A stretch of 64,000 bases of DNA from Pyrofollis japonicus (GTDB lineage: Archaea; Thermoproteota; Thermoprotei_A; Sulfolobales; Pyrodictiaceae): positions 1,231,126-1,295,125 of the forward strand of contig NZ_AP028634.1 in assembly GCF_033097485.1 (NCBI RefSeq), given 5' to 3'. Positions 43,745 to 52,971 of the stretch are shown here, piece by piece. The position numbers and the translations under genes were made by a program. Below the pieces are notes generated by a model, which was not told the origin of the DNA, searched no databases, and saw only the letters and a list, made by a program, of their open reading frames with translations. How positions within the stretch are numbered: the first letter of the stretch is position 1; each line of letters starts with the position of its first letter.

Positions 43745-44359
43745 CTACTGGGGATTATTGTCTTCTCTAAGCACATCTAGATATCCTATTGTAGACGCTG
43801 TTAGCGCTACGAGTTCTGGTATAAGTGTGCCAGGCGGCCAATTGGCAACGACACTAGTATACCATACAATGATTGACGTAAAGGAGAGCATGCCCACGTT
43901 GAGCCTCCTCACGAACGCACGGTGAACATCTAGGCTGAATTGGGCAATACTTGGTCTTGGCGGAGGACTAGTTACCAAATATGTTACTGCAAATGCAATC
44001 GTTGCTGCAAAGAATACTTGTGAAAGCACATGTACTACTTCTGGCTCCTCTATCGAAGCAAATGGAATTGCTGCTAATATGAGCGAGTATATTAGCCCTA
44101 TTATTGCAAGGGGCTTTGAGGAACGGGCTATACACCTAGCAAACGACATCGCTGATACAAGCCCTGATAGTTCTATCACTATTGGTAGGAGAATGTTCAT
44201 CGTGTTTCCGGGCTTTATGCTTGCAAAGGAGGCTATGGATGAAGTATATATCGACATCCATCCATTGTGCAAGGCAAAGACTGCTGCACTAATATAGATA
44301 ATAGTAGTGGGTAGAAACGCCGCATGCTTGCAATAGTGATTTCTAGACCCCATGCCCAA
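43745..44359 (-). CDS. Six-helix membrane protein, function unknown
   Basis: A 204-residue protein with about six membrane helices. A short soluble loop (SPPPRPSIAQFSLDVHRAFVRRLN) separates the fourth and fifth. I recognise no family with certainty. It lies between the hypothetical at 43117 and the his operon, on the same strand, and has a 193-base gap to hisI. Confidence 0.55.
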   Translation of the reverse strand: MGMGSRNHYCKHAAFLPTTIIYISAAVFALHNGWMSIYTSSIASFASIKPGNTMNILLPIVIELSGLVSAMSFARCIARSSKPLAIIGLIYSLILAAIPFASIEEPEVVHVLSQVFFAATIAFAVTYLVTSPPPRPSIAQFSLDVHRAFVRRLNVGMLSFTSIIVWYTSVVANWPPGTLIPELVALTASTIGYLDVLREDNNPQ

Positions 44360-44552: not shown

Positions 44553-45554
44553 TCATCGCTGCTTTATTGGTATGATTAGCTCTGCTTTCCTGCCCTCTAT
44601 TATTCCGTGCCCTTGTATCTGGAGCATGGCGTTGTCCTCTTTGGGCTGTACGTATAGGTCTAGTATTCTTGTAACTTGGTGGCCTAGCTCCTTTATCCGG
44701 TCTACTCCACGGTACTGTGGCTTAGCTAGTGCTGCAGCAATTGCTACTACCTCGTGGCCTCGCTGCTCCAGCAGCTTTAGTAGCGCTATTGCTGTGCCCC
44801 CGGTAGAGACAGTGTCATCTACTATTGCTACGCGTTTGTACTCGTTACTGAGCCCGTATACGTAGTATTTGCCCTCCTCGTAGCCGGAGGCGTAGCTTAT
44901 CTCGATTCCTGGCGCTTCGTATTGCCGCTTCCTAACAATTATCATAGGCTTTGCGAGCTGTTGTGCGACGAGAGTCCCTAGGGGGAGACCAAGTGCTTCT
45001 GGAACCATTACCGCGTCTGGCTTTAGGGGCTCTAGCTGCTCGGCCAGGGTGTCGGCGAGTAGCTGTAGGAGGAGCGGGTTTATTGGCGGAATGTTGTCAG
45101 TTATTGGGTTGATAACGTATAGGTATTGGTCTAGTCCGGCGTACCCCTTTCTTGGGACGACACGGGCTTCTCTGAAGGCTTCAAGTACTAGTTGCCAGAG
45201 GGCTTCGCTACGTCCCTCGGCAACCGGGTTGTGGAAGCACCTCTTCGCCCCGGTATGGCATACTGGGCCACTCGGGACTCCCTCGTATATAAGCGAGTCG
45301 AGGTCGCAGTCGGCAACAACCCGTAGCACTCTTATCGTGTTCCCGCTTGTCTCCCCCTTCATCCAGAGGCGTTGACGGCTCCTAGAGTAAAACCAGGCAT
45401 AGCCGGTCTCGAGCGTCTTTGCTACTGCTTCTCGGCTAGCATATGCCTGCATGAGCGGCTTCTTCGAGACAGCATCGATCACAGTGACGGGAACTAGCCC
45501 ACCCATCTTCTCGTAGTCGATTTCGTCGGGGCTGCGGATGACATGTAGCGGCAT
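44553..45554 (-). CDS. hisI: HisI (phosphoribosyl-AMP cyclohydrolase) fused to a phosphoribosyltransferase domain
   Basis: A 333-residue protein. Residues about 20-112 are HisI: MQAYASREAVAKTLETG, WMKGETSGNTI, the metal-site ADCDLDSL (C83) and CHTGAKRCF (C99 and C106). It opens the ring of phosphoribosyl-AMP in histidine synthesis. Residues about 140-333 form a type I phosphoribosyltransferase domain with the PRPP loop AIVDDTVSTGGT (244-255). HisI alone is about 110-130 residues. The second domain may be a purine or AICAR-related salvage enzyme; this is inferred. It is the last gene of the operon, nine bases after hisH. Confidence 0.9.
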   Translation of the reverse strand: MPLHVIRSPDEIDYEKMGGLVPVTVIDAVSKKPLMQAYASREAVAKTLETGYAWFYSRSRQRLWMKGETSGNTIRVLRVVADCDLDSLIYEGVPSGPVCHTGAKRCFHNPVAEGRSEALWQLVLEAFREARVVPRKGYAGLDQYLYVINPITDNIPPINPLLLQLLADTLAEQLEPLKPDAVMVPEALGLPLGTLVAQQLAKPMIIVRKRQYEAPGIEISYASGYEEGKYYVYGLSNEYKRVAIVDDTVSTGGTAIALLKLLEQRGHEVVAIAAALAKPQYRGVDRIKELGHQVTRILDLYVQPKEDNAMLQIQGHGIIEGRKAELIIPIKQR

Positions 45555-45563
45555 AGCTTGTTC

Positions 45564-46160
45564 TCACCTCTTCACGGCCTCTACAAAGTTTCTTAGAACG
45601 AGTGAGCCCTTGCGCCCGCTCCTCTCTGGGTGGAACTGGGTACCATACAAGGGATGCTTCTCAATGACTGCTGCAAAGCTTTCACCGTGAGCACTGTAAG
45701 CCTTCACCCAGCCTGGCGCTGTATTAGTATAAGCATAGCTGTGCACATAGTACATGTAGGACCCGTTCTCTACGCCCCTTAGTAGCTCGCTGTCGCGGAG
45801 CATGAAGGTGCGTGTCCACCCTATGTGGGGGAGCTTTGGCGCCCTAAGCCTCGTAACCCTGCCAGGCAGGAGGCCTAGGCCTCTTCCCCCCTCCTCGCTT
45901 TCCTCGAAGAAGAGCTGCATCCCTAGGCAAATGCCGAGAACTGGAATGTTGTTCTCGAGTAGCTTGTTGAGCAGGCTTCTCTCCTCTCTTAGCCTCCTAG
46001 TTGCAGCGGGATACGCGCCTACGCCGGGAAGAATGAGTGCATCTATTTCTCCCGCGTCTCTCAGCGTCTCCGACACCTTGACGCTGACTCCTAGCCTCTC
46101 GAAGCCAGCCTTCACGCTATAGATATTGCCGACACCGTATTTCAGCACAAGTATCCTCAT
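45564..46160 (-). CDS. hisH: Imidazole glycerol phosphate synthase, glutaminase subunit HisH
   Basis: A 198-residue class I glutaminase. The nucleophile lies in LGICLGMQLF, and the catalytic histidine and glutamate in QFHPERSG. The PGVGAYPAA segment is the usual oxyanion-region motif. It supplies ammonia to HisF for imidazole ring closure. Its start overlaps hisE by four bases. Confidence 0.93.
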   Translation of the reverse strand: MRILVLKYGVGNIYSVKAGFERLGVSVKVSETLRDAGEIDALILPGVGAYPAATRRLREERSLLNKLLENNIPVLGICLGMQLFFEESEEGGRGLGLLPGRVTRLRAPKLPHIGWTRTFMLRDSELLRGVENGSYMYYVHSYAYTNTAPGWVKAYSAHGESFAAVIEKHPLYGTQFHPERSGRKGSLVLRNFVEAVKR

Positions 46161-46468
46161 CGCCTCCTCCTCCTGAGAAGCTCTTTCGCCACGTCGCGGG
46201 TACTCACGCCGCTCAGGGCGAGAACCACTACAAGGTGGTAGAGAAGGTCGGCTGCCTCTCTGACCAATGCTTCTCGGTCACCTTGGAGGGCTTCGACGAT
46301 GGTCTCTATGGCTTCTTCGCCTAGCTTGCGGGCAGCAAACCCTACTCCCTTCTCGGCTAGGCTGGCTGTGTAGCTACCCTCTGGCTTCTCCCGGATGCGC
46401 TGCAAGACGATGTTGTAGAGTTCGTCGAGGAAGCCAAGACCCTCCGAGCAATCCATGGTTTTGCTCAC
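46157..46468 (-). CDS. hisE: Phosphoribosyl-ATP pyrophosphatase HisE
   Basis: A 103-residue helical MazG-like protein with EKPEGSYTASLAEKG, KLGEEAIETIVEAL and EAADLLYHLVVVL, the metal-binding glutamate and aspartate pattern of HisE. It removes pyrophosphate from phosphoribosyl-ATP. HisE and HisI are separate genes here, not the HisIE fusion. It overlaps hisD by four bases. Confidence 0.93.
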   Translation of the reverse strand: MSKTMDCSEGLGFLDELYNIVLQRIREKPEGSYTASLAEKGVGFAARKLGEEAIETIVEALQGDREALVREAADLLYHLVVVLALSGVSTRDVAKELLRRRRR

Positions 46469-47706
46469 CTTGCCTTCTTTCTCGCTTCTAGGCTCTCAGC
46501 GTGGAAGCGGAATCCTTCTAGCCTGGCAAGCACTATTGCCGCATCAAGGGTCTCTTCGTCCACAGCGCTTACAAGCGCTATTGGTTTCAGAAAGTCATAG
46601 ACGCTTAGCCCGCCACGCCACCTCGCTGCACCACTTGTTGGAAGAACATGGCTAGGCCCAGCAGCGTAATCCATGTAGGCTACTGGCTCGCCCAGCGAGA
46701 CTGCTCCAGCATTCCTTATTTCGTTGACCACGTCGCGGGGATTCTCCATGACTATTTCTAGGTGTTCGGGAGCATACTCGTTAACAATGCCTATCGCTTG
46801 TCCAACGCTGCTCGTAACAACTACGAAGACGAGCCCCATATGTGGTTCCCGAACATGGTCCTTTATCCTCGAGGCAACCTGGTCTGCGAGGCTCTTAGAC
46901 GGCGTGACGAGGACTGCAGAGGAGAATGCTCCGTGCTCTGCTTGTGCAAGGAGGTCTAGGCTCACTAGCTCGGGGTTAGCCGAGTCATCTGCCAGGATTG
47001 CTATCTCGCTTGGCCCCGCAACCATGTCTATACCGGTCTCGGTCGATACTATGAGCTTCGCGGCCTCTACGTAGGGGCTGCCTGGGCCAACAATCTTGTC
47101 CACTCGTGGCAAGGGATTAACCCCGAAGGCTAGCCCGGCTACAGCCTGTGCACCACCCACGGCGTAGAGTGCGTCTATTCCAGCAACAAGGGCAGCCGCC
47201 TCTATGAGTGGGTGGGCTTTGAACCCCCTATCGCGATACGGTGGAGATGCTGCAACTACTAGCCGCGAGCCAGCGACGCGGGCCGGTATACACGTCATCA
47301 AGAGTGTTGATGGATAGGGCTTCGCGCCAGCCGGGACATAGGCGCCAACACGCTCTACGGGACGCCATACGAGTCCATAGCCTTCTCGAACGGTGTCCCG
47401 GGGCATTGTTGCTTCGTGGTATTCCCGTATCCTCTTAGCCGCTACCTCCAGGGCCCAGCGAGCCTCATCGCCTATTTCTCGCAGCGCCTCCTCCATCTCG
47501 CTCCTCGCTACACGTGGGTCATCGAAGCTTCTTGTGTCGAAGCGCTCAGAGTACTCCCTTACAGCGGCATACCCTCTCTCACGGACATCTTCCACAATGG
47601 GCTTAACCTTCTCAATATACTCTTCTAGGCTATACGGTCTCTTCATCTCCCGGATAACAGTCTTCGTATCCACTTGTCTCGCATCAATGTATACTAGGCT
47701 ACCCAT
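46465..47706 (-). CDS. hisD: Histidinol dehydrogenase HisD
   Basis: A 413-residue protein of normal length. Conserved stretches are [64 protein letters not shown] and YAPEHLEI. It oxidises histidinol to histidine in two NAD steps and uses zinc. It lies between hisF and hisE and overlaps both by a few bases. Confidence 0.95.
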
Positions 47707-48466
47707 CGGGAGGCCTCACCTCAACACCACGCTCTAAGAGGTATTTCTTGAGGTCAGGTATGCGGATCAACGCCTCATGGAAAACGCCTGCAGCGAGAGC
47801 CGCATCGGCTCCCGCAATAGTGAATGCTTCAAGGAAGTGCCGGGGCTCGCCAGCACCCCCACTCGCTATAACCGGTACATTCACTGCCTCAACAACAGCC
47901 CCTGTAAGCTCGAGGTCATAGCCCTGCCTCGTTCCATCACGGTCAATGCTTGTTAACAGTATCTCTCCTGCACCAAGCTCGGCTGCTTTTCTAGCCCATT
48001 TCACCGCGTCTATGCCGGTGGGTATGCGACCACCCGCTACGTATACTTCCCAGCCGCCCGCGGCACTTCGGGCAGCGTCTATCGCTACTACTACTGCTTG
48101 TGAGCCATACTCTTTGGCTGCTTCCTGGACGAGTCGTGGATTCTTAACGGCAGCCGTGTTTATTGACACCTTGTCAGCGCCGCTGTCAAGTAATCGGCCG
48201 AAGTCCTCAATGCTACGCACGCCGCCGCCGACAGTAAAGGGCACCGTTATCGTGCTTGCAACGTCCCTTACAACGCGATAGAGGGGTTCACGATCCTCCA
48301 CCGTAGCAGTTATGTCGAGAAACACTAGCTCGTCAACACCCTCCTCCTCGTACCTTGCAGCAAGCTCTACCGGGTCGCCCTGATCCCTTAGGTTCCGGAA
48401 CCGAATCCCCTTGACTACTCGCCCCTTATCCACGTCTAAGCAAGCAATGATTCTCTTAGCTGGCAT
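47699..48466 (-). CDS. hisF: Imidazole glycerol phosphate synthase, cyclase subunit HisF
   Basis: A 255-residue TIM barrel. The catalytic aspartates are in [13 protein letters not shown] and VVAIDA, and phosphate-binding turns are in FTVGGGVRS and [10 protein letters not shown]. It makes imidazole glycerol phosphate and AICAR with ammonia from HisH. It overlaps hisB upstream by eleven bases and hisD downstream by eight. Confidence 0.95.
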
Positions 48467-49043
48467 CCAGCCTCACCTCTCCCTTAGTGCTTATAGTCTC
48501 GGCGCTGGGTGCGAGTGCTTCTCGCAGAGCCATGCCGAGAGCCTTGAACGCCGCCTCGGCGAGGTGGTGGTTATTCCCCGTGGCGATGGCCCTAACGTGT
48601 ATTGTTGCACGCATTGCCGAGGCGAGCGAGGATACGAAGTGGTGTATGTTTTCTAGTGCTAGGCCGCCTATCTCTTCCCGGGTAAATGGCAGCTCAACAT
48701 ACGCGCCGGAGCGCCCCGAGACATCTACCGCTGCGAGGACGAGGACCTCGTCCATGGGGACTATCGCGTAGCCAAACCTCTTTATCCCGGCAGATCCGAT
48801 AGCCCTGGCTATTGCTTCGCCTAGCGTGAGCGCTGTATCCTCTACCACGTGGTGGTCGTCGAAGCCGCGCTTGTCAACCGCCTCAACTGAGCCACTCGCA
48901 CCCATGTAGCGTAGAAGCGTCTCCAACATGTGGTCAAAGAACCCTATCCCCGTGGAGACTTTCGCGTCACCAGGCTCCAACACTATGTTGACAATTATCT
49001 TCGTCTCCCGAGTCTCTCGCACAACTCTTGCCTTCCTAGGCAT
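48456..49043 (-). CDS. hisB: Imidazoleglycerol-phosphate dehydratase HisB
   Basis: I use the ATG at 49043, which overlaps hisA by eight bases; the frame stays open to 49103 but that would run far into hisA. The product is a monofunctional dehydratase with the duplicated metal motifs [13 protein letters not shown] with [12 protein letters not shown], and [11 protein letters not shown] with [14 protein letters not shown]. The histidinol-phosphate phosphatase domain of enterobacterial HisB is absent, and no phosphatase gene is in the cluster. Confidence 0.93.
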
Positions 49044-49752
49044 AGCGAGCAGCCTCCTCCCAGCTAATCTTTCCAGAGTAAAGGGCCATCCCGACGACCA
49101 CACCGTCTACGCGGAGCGCTTCAAGAGCCTCTAGGTCAGCAATGCTCGAGACGCCTCCCGAGTAGATGAGGAGCCCCTTCACCTCCTTGCGCACGTTTCT
49201 TACTCTCTCAAAGCTAGGTCCTCCGAGGGAGCCCTCGACCCATACCTGTGTATAGAACACACCGTCTGCCTTTGTCGAGGCGATTAGCCTCAGCGCCTCC
49301 ATCGTGCTTAATCGCTCCTTTTCTCTCCAGCCACGGGAGAGGAGACGGCCGTCACTATCCTCCTCCACCGCTGCTAAGACCTGGCAACCAGTAGTATCTA
49401 CCACATCGTCGAGGAAGCCGGGGCTGTGGAACCACGCGGACCCTATTACTAGTCTCCTCACACCCTTGCTACACGCCTCAATCGCTGCCTCAATGCTGCG
49501 GATTCCTCCGCCAAACTCAATGCTAACACCTATATCGTTGGCTATTTTCTCTACTATACTGAGGTTCCAGGGGCTCGGTGCACCCTTCTCAGCACCATCT
49601 AGATCAACCACGTGGATCCACTTGAAGCCGTAGCTCGCTATGCGCTCCGCCAATGCCAGGGGGTCTCCGAGCCGGAGGCCGGTGCCCCTCACCCCTCGTA
49701 CACGCTTAACCGCCTCACCGGCCTCCAAGTCTATTGAGGGTAGGAGCTTCAC
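49036..49752 (-). CDS. hisA: ProFAR isomerase HisA
   Basis: A 238-residue TIM barrel. The first catalytic aspartate is in PSIDLEAGEAVKRVRG, phosphate-binding turns are in IEFGGGIRSI and LIYSGGVSSI, and VVDLDGAEKGAPSP is the usual loop. It isomerises ProFAR to PRFAR. It overlaps hisG by four bases and hisB by eight. It resembles HisF in fold, as known for the pair. Confidence 0.93.
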   Translation of the reverse strand: MKLLPSIDLEAGEAVKRVRGVRGTGLRLGDPLALAERIASYGFKWIHVVDLDGAEKGAPSPWNLSIVEKIANDIGVSIEFGGGIRSIEAAIEACSKGVRRLVIGSAWFHSPGFLDDVVDTTGCQVLAAVEEDSDGRLLSRGWREKERLSTMEALRLIASTKADGVFYTQVWVEGSLGGPSFERVRNVRKEVKGLLIYSGGVSSIADLEALEALRVDGVVVGMALYSGKISWEEAARYA

Positions 49753-50615
49753 GGTATCACCCTCTCAACGCTCAGTACGAGTATGTCTCTTGCACCCCTC
49801 TTCTTAGCCTCAAAAACAACCTTGGACAATTTATCAATAGGCACAACAGTCATAACCTCCCACATAGGCTCCGGCGCCTCTATGCGTGCAAGCGTCGGGC
49901 CACTCATCGATGGAAGGACCGAGAGGACCTCATGGAGAACCCGGTCTGGCACATTCATGAGCACGAGCTTGTGCCTACGGGCTCTAACAACACTCCTCAA
50001 CGCCTCTATTACCTCGTTAACCGTGTCCTCGTCGTCGCGCACCAACGGGCTCTTTATGAGCCGTGCACTTGTCTCAAGAACGGTGGCAATGGGCACAAGG
50101 CCGTGAAGCCTCATAGTGGTCCCGGTCGACACTATGTCAACAACAGCGTCACATGCACCAAGGCTAGGCATAACCTCTGAGGCACCGCTTATCCTTAGAA
50201 TCTCGGCAGCTATCCCATGCTCCTCGAAGAACTTCCTGGCAATATTGACGTACTTTGTAGCCACTCGCACACCGTCAGGTAGTTCTTCGAGACTCCTTAT
50301 CCCGCTGCTACGCGGCACCGCGACAACAAGCCTTGCACGACCAAATCCTAGGTCGGCTACTTCTTCTACCCGTGCACCCGACTCAACAACGTAGTCTCGC
50401 CCAGTGATGCCTAGCTCGGCTGCACCCGAAGCAACAATGCTCGGGATATCCTCGGCCCTCACATAAACTATTTTCACATCCTCCCTACTCGTCGGGACCA
50501 CAAGCGCCCTATCAGAGTCACCGTACAGCGGCTCAATGCCCGCAGACTCCAAGAGACGGAGCGCAGGAGCACGTAGCCTACCCTTGTTGGGGACAGCTAT
50601 CCTCAGCATCGCCAA
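49749..50615 (-). CDS. hisG: ATP phosphoribosyltransferase HisG, long form
   Basis: A 288-residue protein that starts with TTG; an ATG lies two codons later. The N-terminal part has LRIAVPNKGRLRAP and AELGITGRDYV; the PRPP loop is VVDIVSTGTTM. The final 75 residues form the regulatory domain of the long HisG form that responds to histidine, so no HisZ is needed. It catalyses the first committed step. A 374-base gap separates it from hisC. Confidence 0.94.
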   Translation of the reverse strand: MAMLRIAVPNKGRLRAPALRLLESAGIEPLYGDSDRALVVPTSREDVKIVYVRAEDIPSIVASGAAELGITGRDYVVESGARVEEVADLGFGRARLVVAVPRSSGIRSLEELPDGVRVATKYVNIARKFFEEHGIAAEILRISGASEVMPSLGACDAVVDIVSTGTTMRLHGLVPIATVLETSARLIKSPLVRDDEDTVNEVIEALRSVVRARRHKLVLMNVPDRVLHEVLSVLPSMSGPTLARIEAPEPMWEVMTVVPIDKLSKVVFEAKKRGARDILVLSVERVIP

Positions 50616-50989
50616 TCATTATCCCTCGCCACGATTCTTTTCCTGGGAGAATAGAGGCCGCAATCCGAAGCCGTATTTGCTCGAGGCGGGCCGTGCTTCA
50701 CATCTGCTGCATCAACATCCTTCTCTTCGAGAAGGAGGCTTAGGGACGAAGAGAACAAGGAGACCATCGTAGGCCGAGGCATGTACATCTTATCCTGTAT
50801 GAACGCACATCTCCCTTCACCCTTGCCTCGATAACGGGCTATGCAAAGCCCACTCCTTTGTGGAGGTTAAAGAGGTTACCCTCGAGAGGGGTGCGGCTTC
50901 CAAACCACTCTTCATGCAAGACTAGTCAAAGATCTGTAAGCTTTCCTCAAAGAGTGCAGGGCTAACGACTTTCGGTTAGCTGATATTCT
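50616..50989. other. Gap inside the his cluster between hisC and hisG
   Basis: This 374-base interval contains no convincing gene on either strand. It is the only long gap in an otherwise overlapping operon, so it may hold a second promoter for hisG onward or a leader. I see no clear TATA box next to hisG and no perfect palindrome. Confidence 0.5.
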
Positions 50990-52048
50990 TCATCCTTTTA
51001 TCTCCGATAACGTTTTTAGAAGTATCTCGAGCTCGCCTCGTGCCCCGATCGTTATCCGTGCCCATGTGTCGCCAAAGGGTACTCGGCGAACCATTACACC
51101 GCGCTCGGCGAGCCTGTCCACAACATTGTCTATGCGGGTGTCTACTAGGACGAAGTTCGTCCAGCTCCTATAGGGCTTCATTCCGAGGGCTCCTAGGTGT
51201 TCCCGTAGCCATTCCCTTCTCTCAGCAATATTCTCAACGATTTTCTTGAAGATGTTCCTGCAGCCTAGCGCAGCTATGGCGGCTGCTATACTGGTGCGCG
51301 GCATGGGGAAGGGGGCTAGGAACTTCCAAACAGCGTCGCGAACATCCTTTGCGGCTACCAGGTAGCCTATGCGGAGCCCGGCGAGCCCGAAGGCCTTGCT
51401 AAAGGTCCTAGTGACGACGATGTTGCTGAACTCGCTCACTAGGTCTATGACGGTTTCTTTGCTGAACTCGTAGTAGGCCTCATCAACTACTACGAGCCCC
51501 CTCGTGTTTTCCGCTATGCTAGCTATCGTTTCTCTGTCGAACAAGAGGCTGCCCGTAGGGTTGTTTGGGTTATCTATTACGACTAGTTTCGCGTTCTTCG
51601 CCTCCTCGAGGAACGCGTCTCTATCAACGCACCACTTGTCACCGCACTCCCTTAGAGGAGTCTCACGGTACCGTGCGCCGCTTAGCGAGGAGTAGACCCG
51701 GTACATTGAGAACGAGGGGGCAGCTGCTACGACTACGTCGCCTGGGTCGAGAACTGCTTCGAACAAGGATCTTAGCAGCGCGTCACTGCCCGGGCCGAAG
51801 GCTATGTTATCTCTACTTATACCAGTGTACTCCGAGAGCCCGTCCAGGAGCTGGTTGTACATGTTCTTCTCGGGGTACCGGTTTGCTCTACGAGCCTCCT
51901 CTAGTATAGCGTCAACTATGCACTGGGGAGGGGGTTCAGGGTTCTCATTGAGATCAAGCCTGGCAACTGTGTCACGAGAATAATCGCGTGGCTCGTAAAC
52001 CGGTGCTTCTCGGACCCATTTTCTTATAATCATCACCGTGGACACCAT
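50990..52048 (-). CDS. hisC: Histidinol-phosphate aminotransferase HisC
   Basis: A 352-residue PLP-dependent fold-type I protein. Conserved features are LDLNENPEPPP, the GPGSDALLRSLFEAVLDPGDVV stretch, IDNPNNPTGSLL, VVDEAYYEFS and the Schiff-base lysine in TFSKAFGLAGLRIGYL. It makes histidinol phosphate. It opens the hisCGABFDEHI order known from Sulfolobus. A later ATG at 52033 is an alternative start. Confidence 0.93.
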   Translation of the reverse strand: MVSTVMIIRKWVREAPVYEPRDYSRDTVARLDLNENPEPPPQCIVDAILEEARRANRYPEKNMYNQLLDGLSEYTGISRDNIAFGPGSDALLRSLFEAVLDPGDVVVAAAPSFSMYRVYSSLSGARYRETPLRECGDKWCVDRDAFLEEAKNAKLVVIDNPNNPTGSLLFDRETIASIAENTRGLVVVDEAYYEFSKETVIDLVSEFSNIVVTRTFSKAFGLAGLRIGYLVAAKDVRDAVWKFLAPFPMPRTSIAAAIAALGCRNIFKKIVENIAERREWLREHLGALGMKPYRSWTNFVLVDTRIDNVVDRLAERGVMVRRVPFGDTWARITIGARGELEILLKTLSEIKG

Positions 52049-52115: not shown

Positions 52116-52248
52116 ATACCAGTCCTCGGAGGGCCGGGGACGTTTCCTCGCAGAGGTAAGTCCTTTAGCCGCGTCCTTGATACTCTGACGCGGTACTGTG
52201 TGCGGCTTCTTTATTGCGCTTGTCGCCGTGCTTGGAGGCGTCGGCCTG

Positions 52249-52971
52249 GTGGTTGTTCCTAGCAGGCGGTTCGACGAGGCAAGGTTCGTGTTAATGGTTG
52301 TTGAGGCGCTTCGCTTGGCGAAGCAGAGGCATAGTTACCGTGAATTATCAAGGGCTACGGGGATTCCAGCGCCACACCTTTCGCGCTACGTGACTGGTAG
52401 GGGCTTGCCCTCGCCGGAGAAGGCCAAGGTTATCCTTGACGCTATTTGGCGCCTAGAGAACCCGCGCAGGGTGCTTGCAGAGCGCCTCGCCGAGACCGGA
52501 GGCGTTCTCGACACAAGTGTTATTCTAACCGATCCCCTGTATCTCCTACTGGTCTCGCTCCACTACGCTGACAAGATACGGGGCAAAAACATCACGAGGA
52601 TACTTGTGCCCGAGGCGTCAGGTATACCGTTCGCCACCGCCATGAGCATGGTGATTGAGAGGCCCTTTACCGTGGCGCGCCGCGGACCAATAACCGATAG
52701 CGATGTGTGCAGCTCAACTATACCCAGCTTCTGCATACCTCGCAACACACTTTCAAGGACAGATAATGTACTCATAGTTGACGACATCGTTGAGACCGGG
52801 AAGACGCTGAAGGCTCTCCGCGACCTAGTAGAAAGAAGTGGCGCCAGAATAGCCCATATCGCTGCAATCGTGGTAGTTGGCGAGGAATGGGTTGAAATAA
52901 GCGGGTTCCGGGAAGTAGACGCACTGGTTATCCTCACAAAGCCAGGAGCCAGGCGCGTACCGAGCCTCTAG
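52249..52971 (+). CDS. HTH-phosphoribosyltransferase regulator (GfcR/PurR-like)
   Basis: I favour the GTG at 52249, ten bases after GGAGG; the frame extends to 52198 but that lead is hydrophobic and unlikely. An N-terminal helix-turn-helix (SYRELSRATGIPAPHLSRYVTG) leads into a type I phosphoribosyltransferase domain with the PRPP loop VLIVDDIVETGKT. Such archaeal proteins bind DNA and sense PRPP or nucleotides instead of acting as enzymes. It is divergent from hisC. Control of the his operon is a testable inference. Confidence 0.82.
   Translation: MVVPSRRFDEARFVLMVVEALRLAKQRHSYRELSRATGIPAPHLSRYVTGRGLPSPEKAKVILDAIWRLENPRRVLAERLAETGGVLDTSVILTDPLYLLLVSLHYADKIRGKNITRILVPEASGIPFATAMSMVIERPFTVARRGPITDSDVCSSTIPSFCIPRNTLSRTDNVLIVDDIVETGKTLKALRDLVERSGARIAHIAAIVVVGEEWVEISGFREVDALVILTKPGARRVPSL

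Follow-up and report, generated by a model that had tools for sequence, protein, structure and literature searches.

Breakage of the ATP ring during histidine synthesis yields AICAR, which textbook schemes return to purine synthesis. Among the fusions of his genes described in PMC1963479 and PMC11237513 are HisIE, HisNB, HisHF, HIS4 and HisA/F-HisIE. No fusion of HisI to a phosphoribosyltransferase (PRT) was found in the literature searched, which includes these two papers (supplements aside) and few subscription papers. A survey of purine genes in archaea, published in 2011, expects, in the sections bearing on this point, the last two steps of purine synthesis wherever his genes occur (PMC3261824). 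One his-positive archaeon without AICAR-recycling genes is recorded in the same sections, which leave it unexplained (PMC3261824). Another route for AICAR is described in part of PMC5171910: adenine PRT (APRT) accepts AICA, a beef-liver enzyme made AICA and PRPP from AICAR and PPi, and AICAR was converted to AICA in a fungal extract.

Here we describe a HisI-PRT fusion in the window, the whole 64,000-nucleotide stretch of Pyrofollis japonicus DNA that was analysed. Its PRT tail may be the missing way of coping with AICAR in heat-loving archaea that seem unable to recycle it.

The hisI-PRT gene and the his operon

The fusion gene occupies positions 44553-45554, as the preliminary description had it, and lies on the minus strand. 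Its reading frame runs from the ATG at 45554 to the stop codon at 44553-44555; nothing interrupts it between the two domains, where a stop or a change of frame would have counted as a refutation. The protein consists of a complete HisI (residues 1-112) and a complete type I PRT (residues 113-333), joined almost without a linker. The HisI core thus ends near residue 112, as first described; the tail measures about 221 residues, not about 190.

44553..45554, minus strand: hisI-PRT fusion gene, 333 aa (open frame; Pfam PRA-CH and Pribosyltran; ATG at 45554)
45219..45554, minus strand: HisI (phosphoribosyl-AMP cyclohydrolase) domain, residues 1-112 (PF01502; fold search)
45297..45311, minus strand: DCDLD, HisI Asp82/Cys83/Asp84/Asp86 (invariant in 15/15 aligned intact fusions)
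45237..45260, minus strand: CHTGAKRC, HisI Cys99 and Cys106 (invariant in 15/15 aligned intact fusions)
44556..45218, minus strand: HPT/APRT-type PRT domain, residues 113-333 (PF00156, NCBIfam, AlphaFold2 and PDB match)

The HisI half matches PF01502 at residues 35-108 over the entire profile (1-74 of 74) with 100.4 bits (cut-off 27, E 4.9e-29). In a fold search it is 43% identical to 6j22/6j2l, and the matches are HisIE structures. Cys99, Cys106 and Asp82/Cys83/Asp84/Asp86 are what we take to be the metal ligands of HisI. No match to PF01503 (PRA-PH) was found in the fusion protein, which by this criterion is not a HisIE. An AlphaFold2 model built from 15 aligned intact fusions has a mean pLDDT of 88 and a pTM of 0.68; because of this pTM, the relative placing of the two domains in the model is unreliable.

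The fusion had been placed at the end of the his operon, and hisI-PRT is indeed the final gene of hisC-G-A-B-F-D-E-H-I, starting 9 bases past hisH. The part of the cluster upstream of hisE spans 46465..52048 on the minus strand.

45564..46160, minus strand: hisH (TIGR01855, 216 bits, above cut-off)
46157..46468, minus strand: hisE, a separate gene (PF01503, 70 bits; TIGR03188)
46465-47706, minus strand: hisD (named from sequence and matching gene order in relatives)
47699-48466, minus strand: hisF (named from sequence and matching gene order in relatives)
48456-49103, minus strand: hisB (named from sequence and matching gene order in relatives)
49036-49752, minus strand: hisA (named from sequence and matching gene order in relatives)
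49749-50615, minus strand: hisG (named from sequence and matching gene order in relatives)
50990-52048, minus strand: hisC (TIGR01141, above cut-off)

Since a separate hisE is present, the PRT is no substitute for HisE in the window, and the same holds for relatives whose operon includes hisE. In the more distant carriers (loci L049, L052-L056, L114-L116 and L130), the his-operon stretches showed no hisE.

Two further genes flank the operon. A gene for an HTH-PRT protein, divergent from hisC, occupies 52198-52971 on the plus strand; its best NCBIfam match, PRK08558, is below cut-off, and its kin adjoin his genes in genomes G004, G011 and G005 (L041, L043, L044). It is a possible candidate for a PRPP-sensing regulator of the his operon. 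Downstream of hisI, an ORF of 204 residues (43745-44359, minus strand) has a membrane-bound look and no confident family match.

Sequence features of the PRT domain

The PRT half matches PF00156 (Pribosyltran) at residues 165-287 with 51.3 bits (cut-off 26.3, E 1.1e-13), and its PRPP loop is intact. This loop had already been noticed in the tail and is AIVDDTVSTGGT, residues 243-254. Both of the NCBIfam families considered score below their cut-offs: the adenine PRT subfamily PRK02304.1-4 (NF002635) at 118.3 bits against 146, and HPT_Archaea (NF040646) at 114.2 bits against an equivalog cut-off of 200. The best PDB match of the modelled PRT half is the APRT 4mb6 (E 8.7e-13); XPRT and PurR structures were matched as well.

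44982..44999, minus strand: EALGLP, residues 186-191, pyrophosphate-binding loop by position (E186, G189 and P191 invariant in 15/15 intact fusions)
44853..44888, minus strand: SGYEEGKYYVYG, residues 223-234, flexible loop by position (S223, G224, G228, Y233 and G234 invariant in 15/15)
44793..44828, minus strand: PRPP loop, residues 243-254 (D246, D247, S250, T251, G252 and G253 invariant in 15/15)
44721..44723, minus strand: Lys278 of a K-P-Q-Y motif, candidate base-recognition residue (residue comparison)

Position 278 is occupied by lysine in all 18 intact fusion rows, in 3/3 haloarchaeal hpt proteins, in a Haloferax PRT and in the his-operon PRT of locus L120 (see below). It is leucine in both APRT rows and not lysine in any of the six decayed forms. 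In human HGPRT the matching lysine reads the 6-oxo group, and AICA carries a carboxamide at the side that matches this group. The Lys278 pattern points to a 6-oxopurine or carboxamide base, not adenine; as a residue pattern, it is equally compatible with hypoxanthine or guanine. The N-terminal helix region of stand-alone archaeal hpt is also present in the fused PRT, whose nearest kin are the archaeal hypoxanthine/guanine PRTs, purine PRTs rather than orotate PRTs. Identity as an orotate PRT was rejected, given a separate PyrE-like ORF in the genome (named from sequence) and the higher scores of purine PRTs.

The genome of the window encodes relatives of both GpT-1 (4trb, E 2.5e-51) and GpT-2 (4z1o, E 1.8e-40), along with PyrE-, Upp- and Prs-like ORFs (names from sequence). 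Neither 4trb nor 4z1o appears among the matches of the fused tail with an E-value of 0.001 or lower. Because relatives of GpT-1 and GpT-2 are already present, the fused PRT is an extra PRT and plain purine salvage looks covered; the tail as the sole adenine or hypoxanthine PRT of the genome is ruled out.

Distribution and phylogeny of the fusion

The intact fusion is present in 19 archaeal genomes of several families within one phylum, and six more carry a decayed tail in which the PRPP motif is lost. Beyond the window, the fusion occurs in 18 further genomes, as a single ORF in 17 and on two contigs in G134 (L119 and L117). The preliminary description had proposed a search of other archaea and had counted absence from all relatives as a refutation, an objection that fails with these 18 genomes. 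An assembly or frame artefact has next to no chance of being right and is ruled out by the one closed contig, the uninterrupted frame and the 18 further genomes. The preliminary description did not foresee how widely the fusion is spread, that its PRT has decayed repeatedly, or that the genome holds relatives of both standard crenarchaeal purine PRTs.

A whole-protein search covered 98 genomes, namely that of the window and those of 97 relatives, and a PF01502 search of the class covered 229 genomes, 73 of them with HisI. The carriers in the class are G000 and G004 in the window's genus, G038 in another family and G024, G114, G115, G117 and G134-G137 in a third; the fusion of G136 is cut by a contig end and starts within HisI. 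The wider phylum, of which 398 genomes were sampled and 268 of these have HisI, adds G302, G393, G399, G269, G501 and G549. A contig scan yielded 25 loci and added L115 and L116 (G555, G556) as fusion carriers. The archaeal taxa named at the loci are Pyrodictiaceae, Acidilobaceae, Aeropyrum, Desulfurococcales, and Geothermarchaeota and Thaumarchaeota MAGs; at none of the bacterial loci of the scan was a his gene found beside a PRT. G501 and G554 share the same 14640-base contig and G134 is the same as G558, and each was counted once.

In the PRT tree, in which the comparison set was small (haloarchaeal hpt as outgroup, one bacterial APRT and HTH-PRTs), all 20 fused rows (18 intact and two alignable decayed forms) fall into a single clade with support of 98/93. 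The fused HisI halves are not joined in the HisI tree; a single clade has an AU p of 0.039, on the 119 columns that the short HisI provides. One clade (98/91) unites 14 rows from families f1, f6 and f10, and the others group with HisIE or stand-alone HisI. With the PRT halves in one clade and the HisI halves scattered, the tail may either have been fused on more than one occasion or have been lost repeatedly.

Decay of the PRT tail

In four members of the window's family, f1 (G005, G011, G014 and G018), the decayed tail is about 160 residues long, and the flexible and PRPP loops are gone. The PRPP motif reads DSAISTEET in G248 and DTTISD in G098, and Lys278 is lost in both. Altogether, the PRPP loop is lost or broken in 6/6 decayed forms, and PurP is present in five of these six carriers. 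G269, the sister of G248 (support 99/93), keeps an intact PRT. The enzyme domain has decayed repeatedly, mostly in relatives with PurP.

Loss of the loops did not abolish the fold. The model of one f1 decayed tail still matches PRT folds (XPRT, E 5e-6; also PurR), and the dN/dS of the tail is 0.17-0.31 in three pairs of the f1 decayed forms, about as in HisI, indicating purifying selection. These properties of the four f1 genomes would suit a tail that adds only oligomer contacts or heat stability, its motifs being a relic. The catalytic motifs are, however, invariant over deep divergence in the intact lineages, and we regard a purely structural role as very improbable.

Retention of a tail with a decayed PRT shows that HisI tolerates an inactive tail, which would also fit a ligand sensor. 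In such a PurR-like arrangement, the PRT domain would bind PRPP, AICAR or a purine nucleotide and tune HisI without turnover. B. subtilis PurR ranks with the top matches of the PRT half in both structure and profile searches, and an HTH-PRT gene adjoins the his genes in the window and in relatives. Against this, the intact forms keep the PRPP, pyrophosphate and flexible loops all together, which is beyond the needs of binding, and HisI is not the committed step. A sensor is improbable in our view.

Missing AICAR-recycling and purine genes

Sixteen of the 19 intact carriers lack PurP (PF06973), namely G000, G038, G024, G114, G115, G117, G135, G137, G302, G393, G134 (as G558), G136, G501 (as G554), G555, G556 and G549. 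PurH (PF01808), tested in 38 + 21 genomes, was found in none of the 19. The three intact carriers with PurP are G004, which has PurC too, G399 and G269. G501 and G549 had been flagged by their missing PurP before the fusion was detected in them. PurC (PF01259) was tested in 38 genomes, among which the matches in G033 and G025 are fragments; it is absent from 12 of the 13 intact carriers tested, and PurP is absent from 10 of the same 13. The carrier of a decayed tail G098 has neither PurP nor PurC nor PurH. In G269, G248 and G399 (L052, L053, L056), PurP is present and a PurC match is absent, and these genomes may have kept only the AICAR-recycling end of purine synthesis.

Within the class, PurP is absent in 10/11 intact carriers versus 4/42 other HisI-bearing genomes (Fisher p 5e-7, kinship ignored; 53 of the 73 HisI-bearing genomes covered). 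In the phylum sample of 398 genomes, the fusion occurs in 8 of the 13 HisI-bearing genomes without PurP and PurH, compared with 2 of the 255 that have one of them (Fisher p 9e-11, kinship ignored). Here 150 of the 268 HisI matches were listed; of the other 118, 33 lie in the fully listed class and 85 outside it. Of these 85, the PRT profile was run against 61, and the remaining 24, which belong to families f18 and f25 and all have PurP, were counted as not fused. The 18 HisI-bearing genomes without PurP in this sample comprise eight intact fusions, five genomes with PurH and five unfused genomes with neither. An independent-pairs test found only four pairs when limited to branches with support in the HisI tree; it gave no significance and had no power. 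The association of the fusion with loss of PurP and PurH is phylogenetically weak. HisI occurs without an intact fusion, PurP or PurH in G009, G043, G103, G418, G443, G453, G487 and G544, several of which are incomplete assemblies; a PRT profile search found no close relative of the fused PRT in these eight genomes.

The missing genes could also reflect purine salvage linked to histidine synthesis: a hypoxanthine/guanine PRT made together with the his enzymes would allow purine auxotrophs to refill the ring lost with each histidine. Absence of PurC tracks the intact fusion slightly more tightly than that of PurP (12/13 against 10/13), archaeal hpt is the nearest kin, Lys278 is kept, and the forward reaction is favourable. 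Yet relatives of GpT-1 and GpT-2 are already encoded, AICAR would still be without an outlet, and in G399 and G269, which have PurP, histidine should cost no net purine and the domain is nevertheless intact. We consider this salvage role, the chief competitor of the reading proposed below, rather unlikely.

A second PRT among his genes

In the archaeal MAG of locus L120, hisG-D-C-B-H-F are followed by a stand-alone PRT of 186 residues and then by a HisA-HisI-HisE fusion; the PRT sits between hisF and this triple fusion (L120:8631-11766). Neither PurP nor PurH was found in this genome. The L120 PRT groups with a Haloferax plasmid PRT outside the fused clade; its membership in the fused clade was rejected, as the data favour the Haloferax grouping (AU p 0.014). 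With the L120 PRT on another branch, his genes seem to have been joined by a PRT at least twice. In the same locus (L120:6344-8044), an ORF of 566 residues matches hisC over residues 5-346 only and may carry an extra C-terminal fusion partner.

Discussion

We tentatively propose, as a possibility somewhat short of an even chance, that the HisI-PRT tail disposes of AICAR by pyrophosphorolysis in cells unable to turn it into IMP. The N-terminal domain is an ordinary HisI, and the C-terminal domain, a complete archaeal HPT-like (6-oxopurine-type) PRT, would act on AICAR. It would take up this purine remnant, which HisF releases, and, as a pyrophosphorylase, convert AICAR and PPi to AICA and PRPP. 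The PPi could be that freshly released by HisG and HisE. AICAR would be removed and PRPP returned to HisG. The analysis shows the fusion, how widely it occurs, the conserved PRT motifs with their loss in some lineages, and the match with missing PurP and PurH; activity of the PRT domain, AICAR or AICA as its substrate and the direction of the reaction are inferred. Purine PRT equilibria usually favour the nucleotide, and the reaction would run as proposed only at high PPi and with AICA being removed.

Most of the genomic support is common to AICAR disposal and to salvage linked to histidine synthesis. We prefer disposal, since it offers AICAR a way out and the genome already encodes ordinary salvage PRTs. 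Against disposal stand the three intact carriers with PurP, the decayed G098 without PurP, PurC and PurH, the eight unfused HisI-bearing genomes with neither PurP nor PurH, the phylogenetic weakness of the association, and a residue pattern that suits hypoxanthine or guanine just as well. The preliminary description was right, in our judgement, to link the fusion to the ATP, PRPP and AICAR of histidine synthesis. Its suggestion that a purine may be recycled is strengthened by the way the intact fusion coincides with missing AICAR-recycling or purine-synthesis genes.

More doubtful still is the wider reading that HisI-PRT is the missing outlet in histidine-making archaea unable to formylate AICAR. 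The his operon would then encode its own pyrophosphorylase, histidine synthesis would run partly on recycled PRPP, and the free base would be discarded. If this outlet exists, the recruitment of a different PRT in L120 would mean that the same solution was invented twice. The fusion is found chiefly in exceptions to the expectation stated in the relevant sections of PMC3261824, namely in genomes with his genes and without AICAR-recycling genes. It provides a concrete protein with which to ask about the fate of AICAR in his-positive, purine-auxotrophic cells.

Among known systems, HisIE likewise has HisI as the N-terminal half of a two-domain histidine enzyme. Its second domain is PRA-PH, whereas the fusion has a PRT in this place and HisE is encoded separately in the window. 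Archaeal HPT (HPT_Archaea; haloarchaeal hpt) is the nearest named kin among purine PRTs and has the N-terminal motif region and Lys278 in common with the fused PRT; the latter differs in being joined to HisI and in scoring 114 bits against a cut-off of 200. Adenine PRT (PRK02304.1-4; 4mb6 and others) gives the tail its best NCBIfam score and best fold match, but the score is 118 bits against a cut-off of 146, and leucine replaces Lys278 in two APRT rows. The crenarchaeal GpT-1 and GpT-2 (4trb, 4z1o) are purine PRTs too, and the tail matches neither at E 0.001. Conversion of AICAR to AICA by nucleotide pyrophosphorylase/APRT, as described in part of PMC5171910, is the reaction proposed here, although those enzymes are eukaryotic and are presented there with no link to histidine genes. 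The HisA/F-HisIE fusions of archaeal MAGs are archaeal his fusions as well, but in the portions of PMC11237513 describing them they are without a PRT. Both domain families are known; within the literature searched, their combination in one protein and the connection of this fusion with missing AICAR recycling appear to be new.
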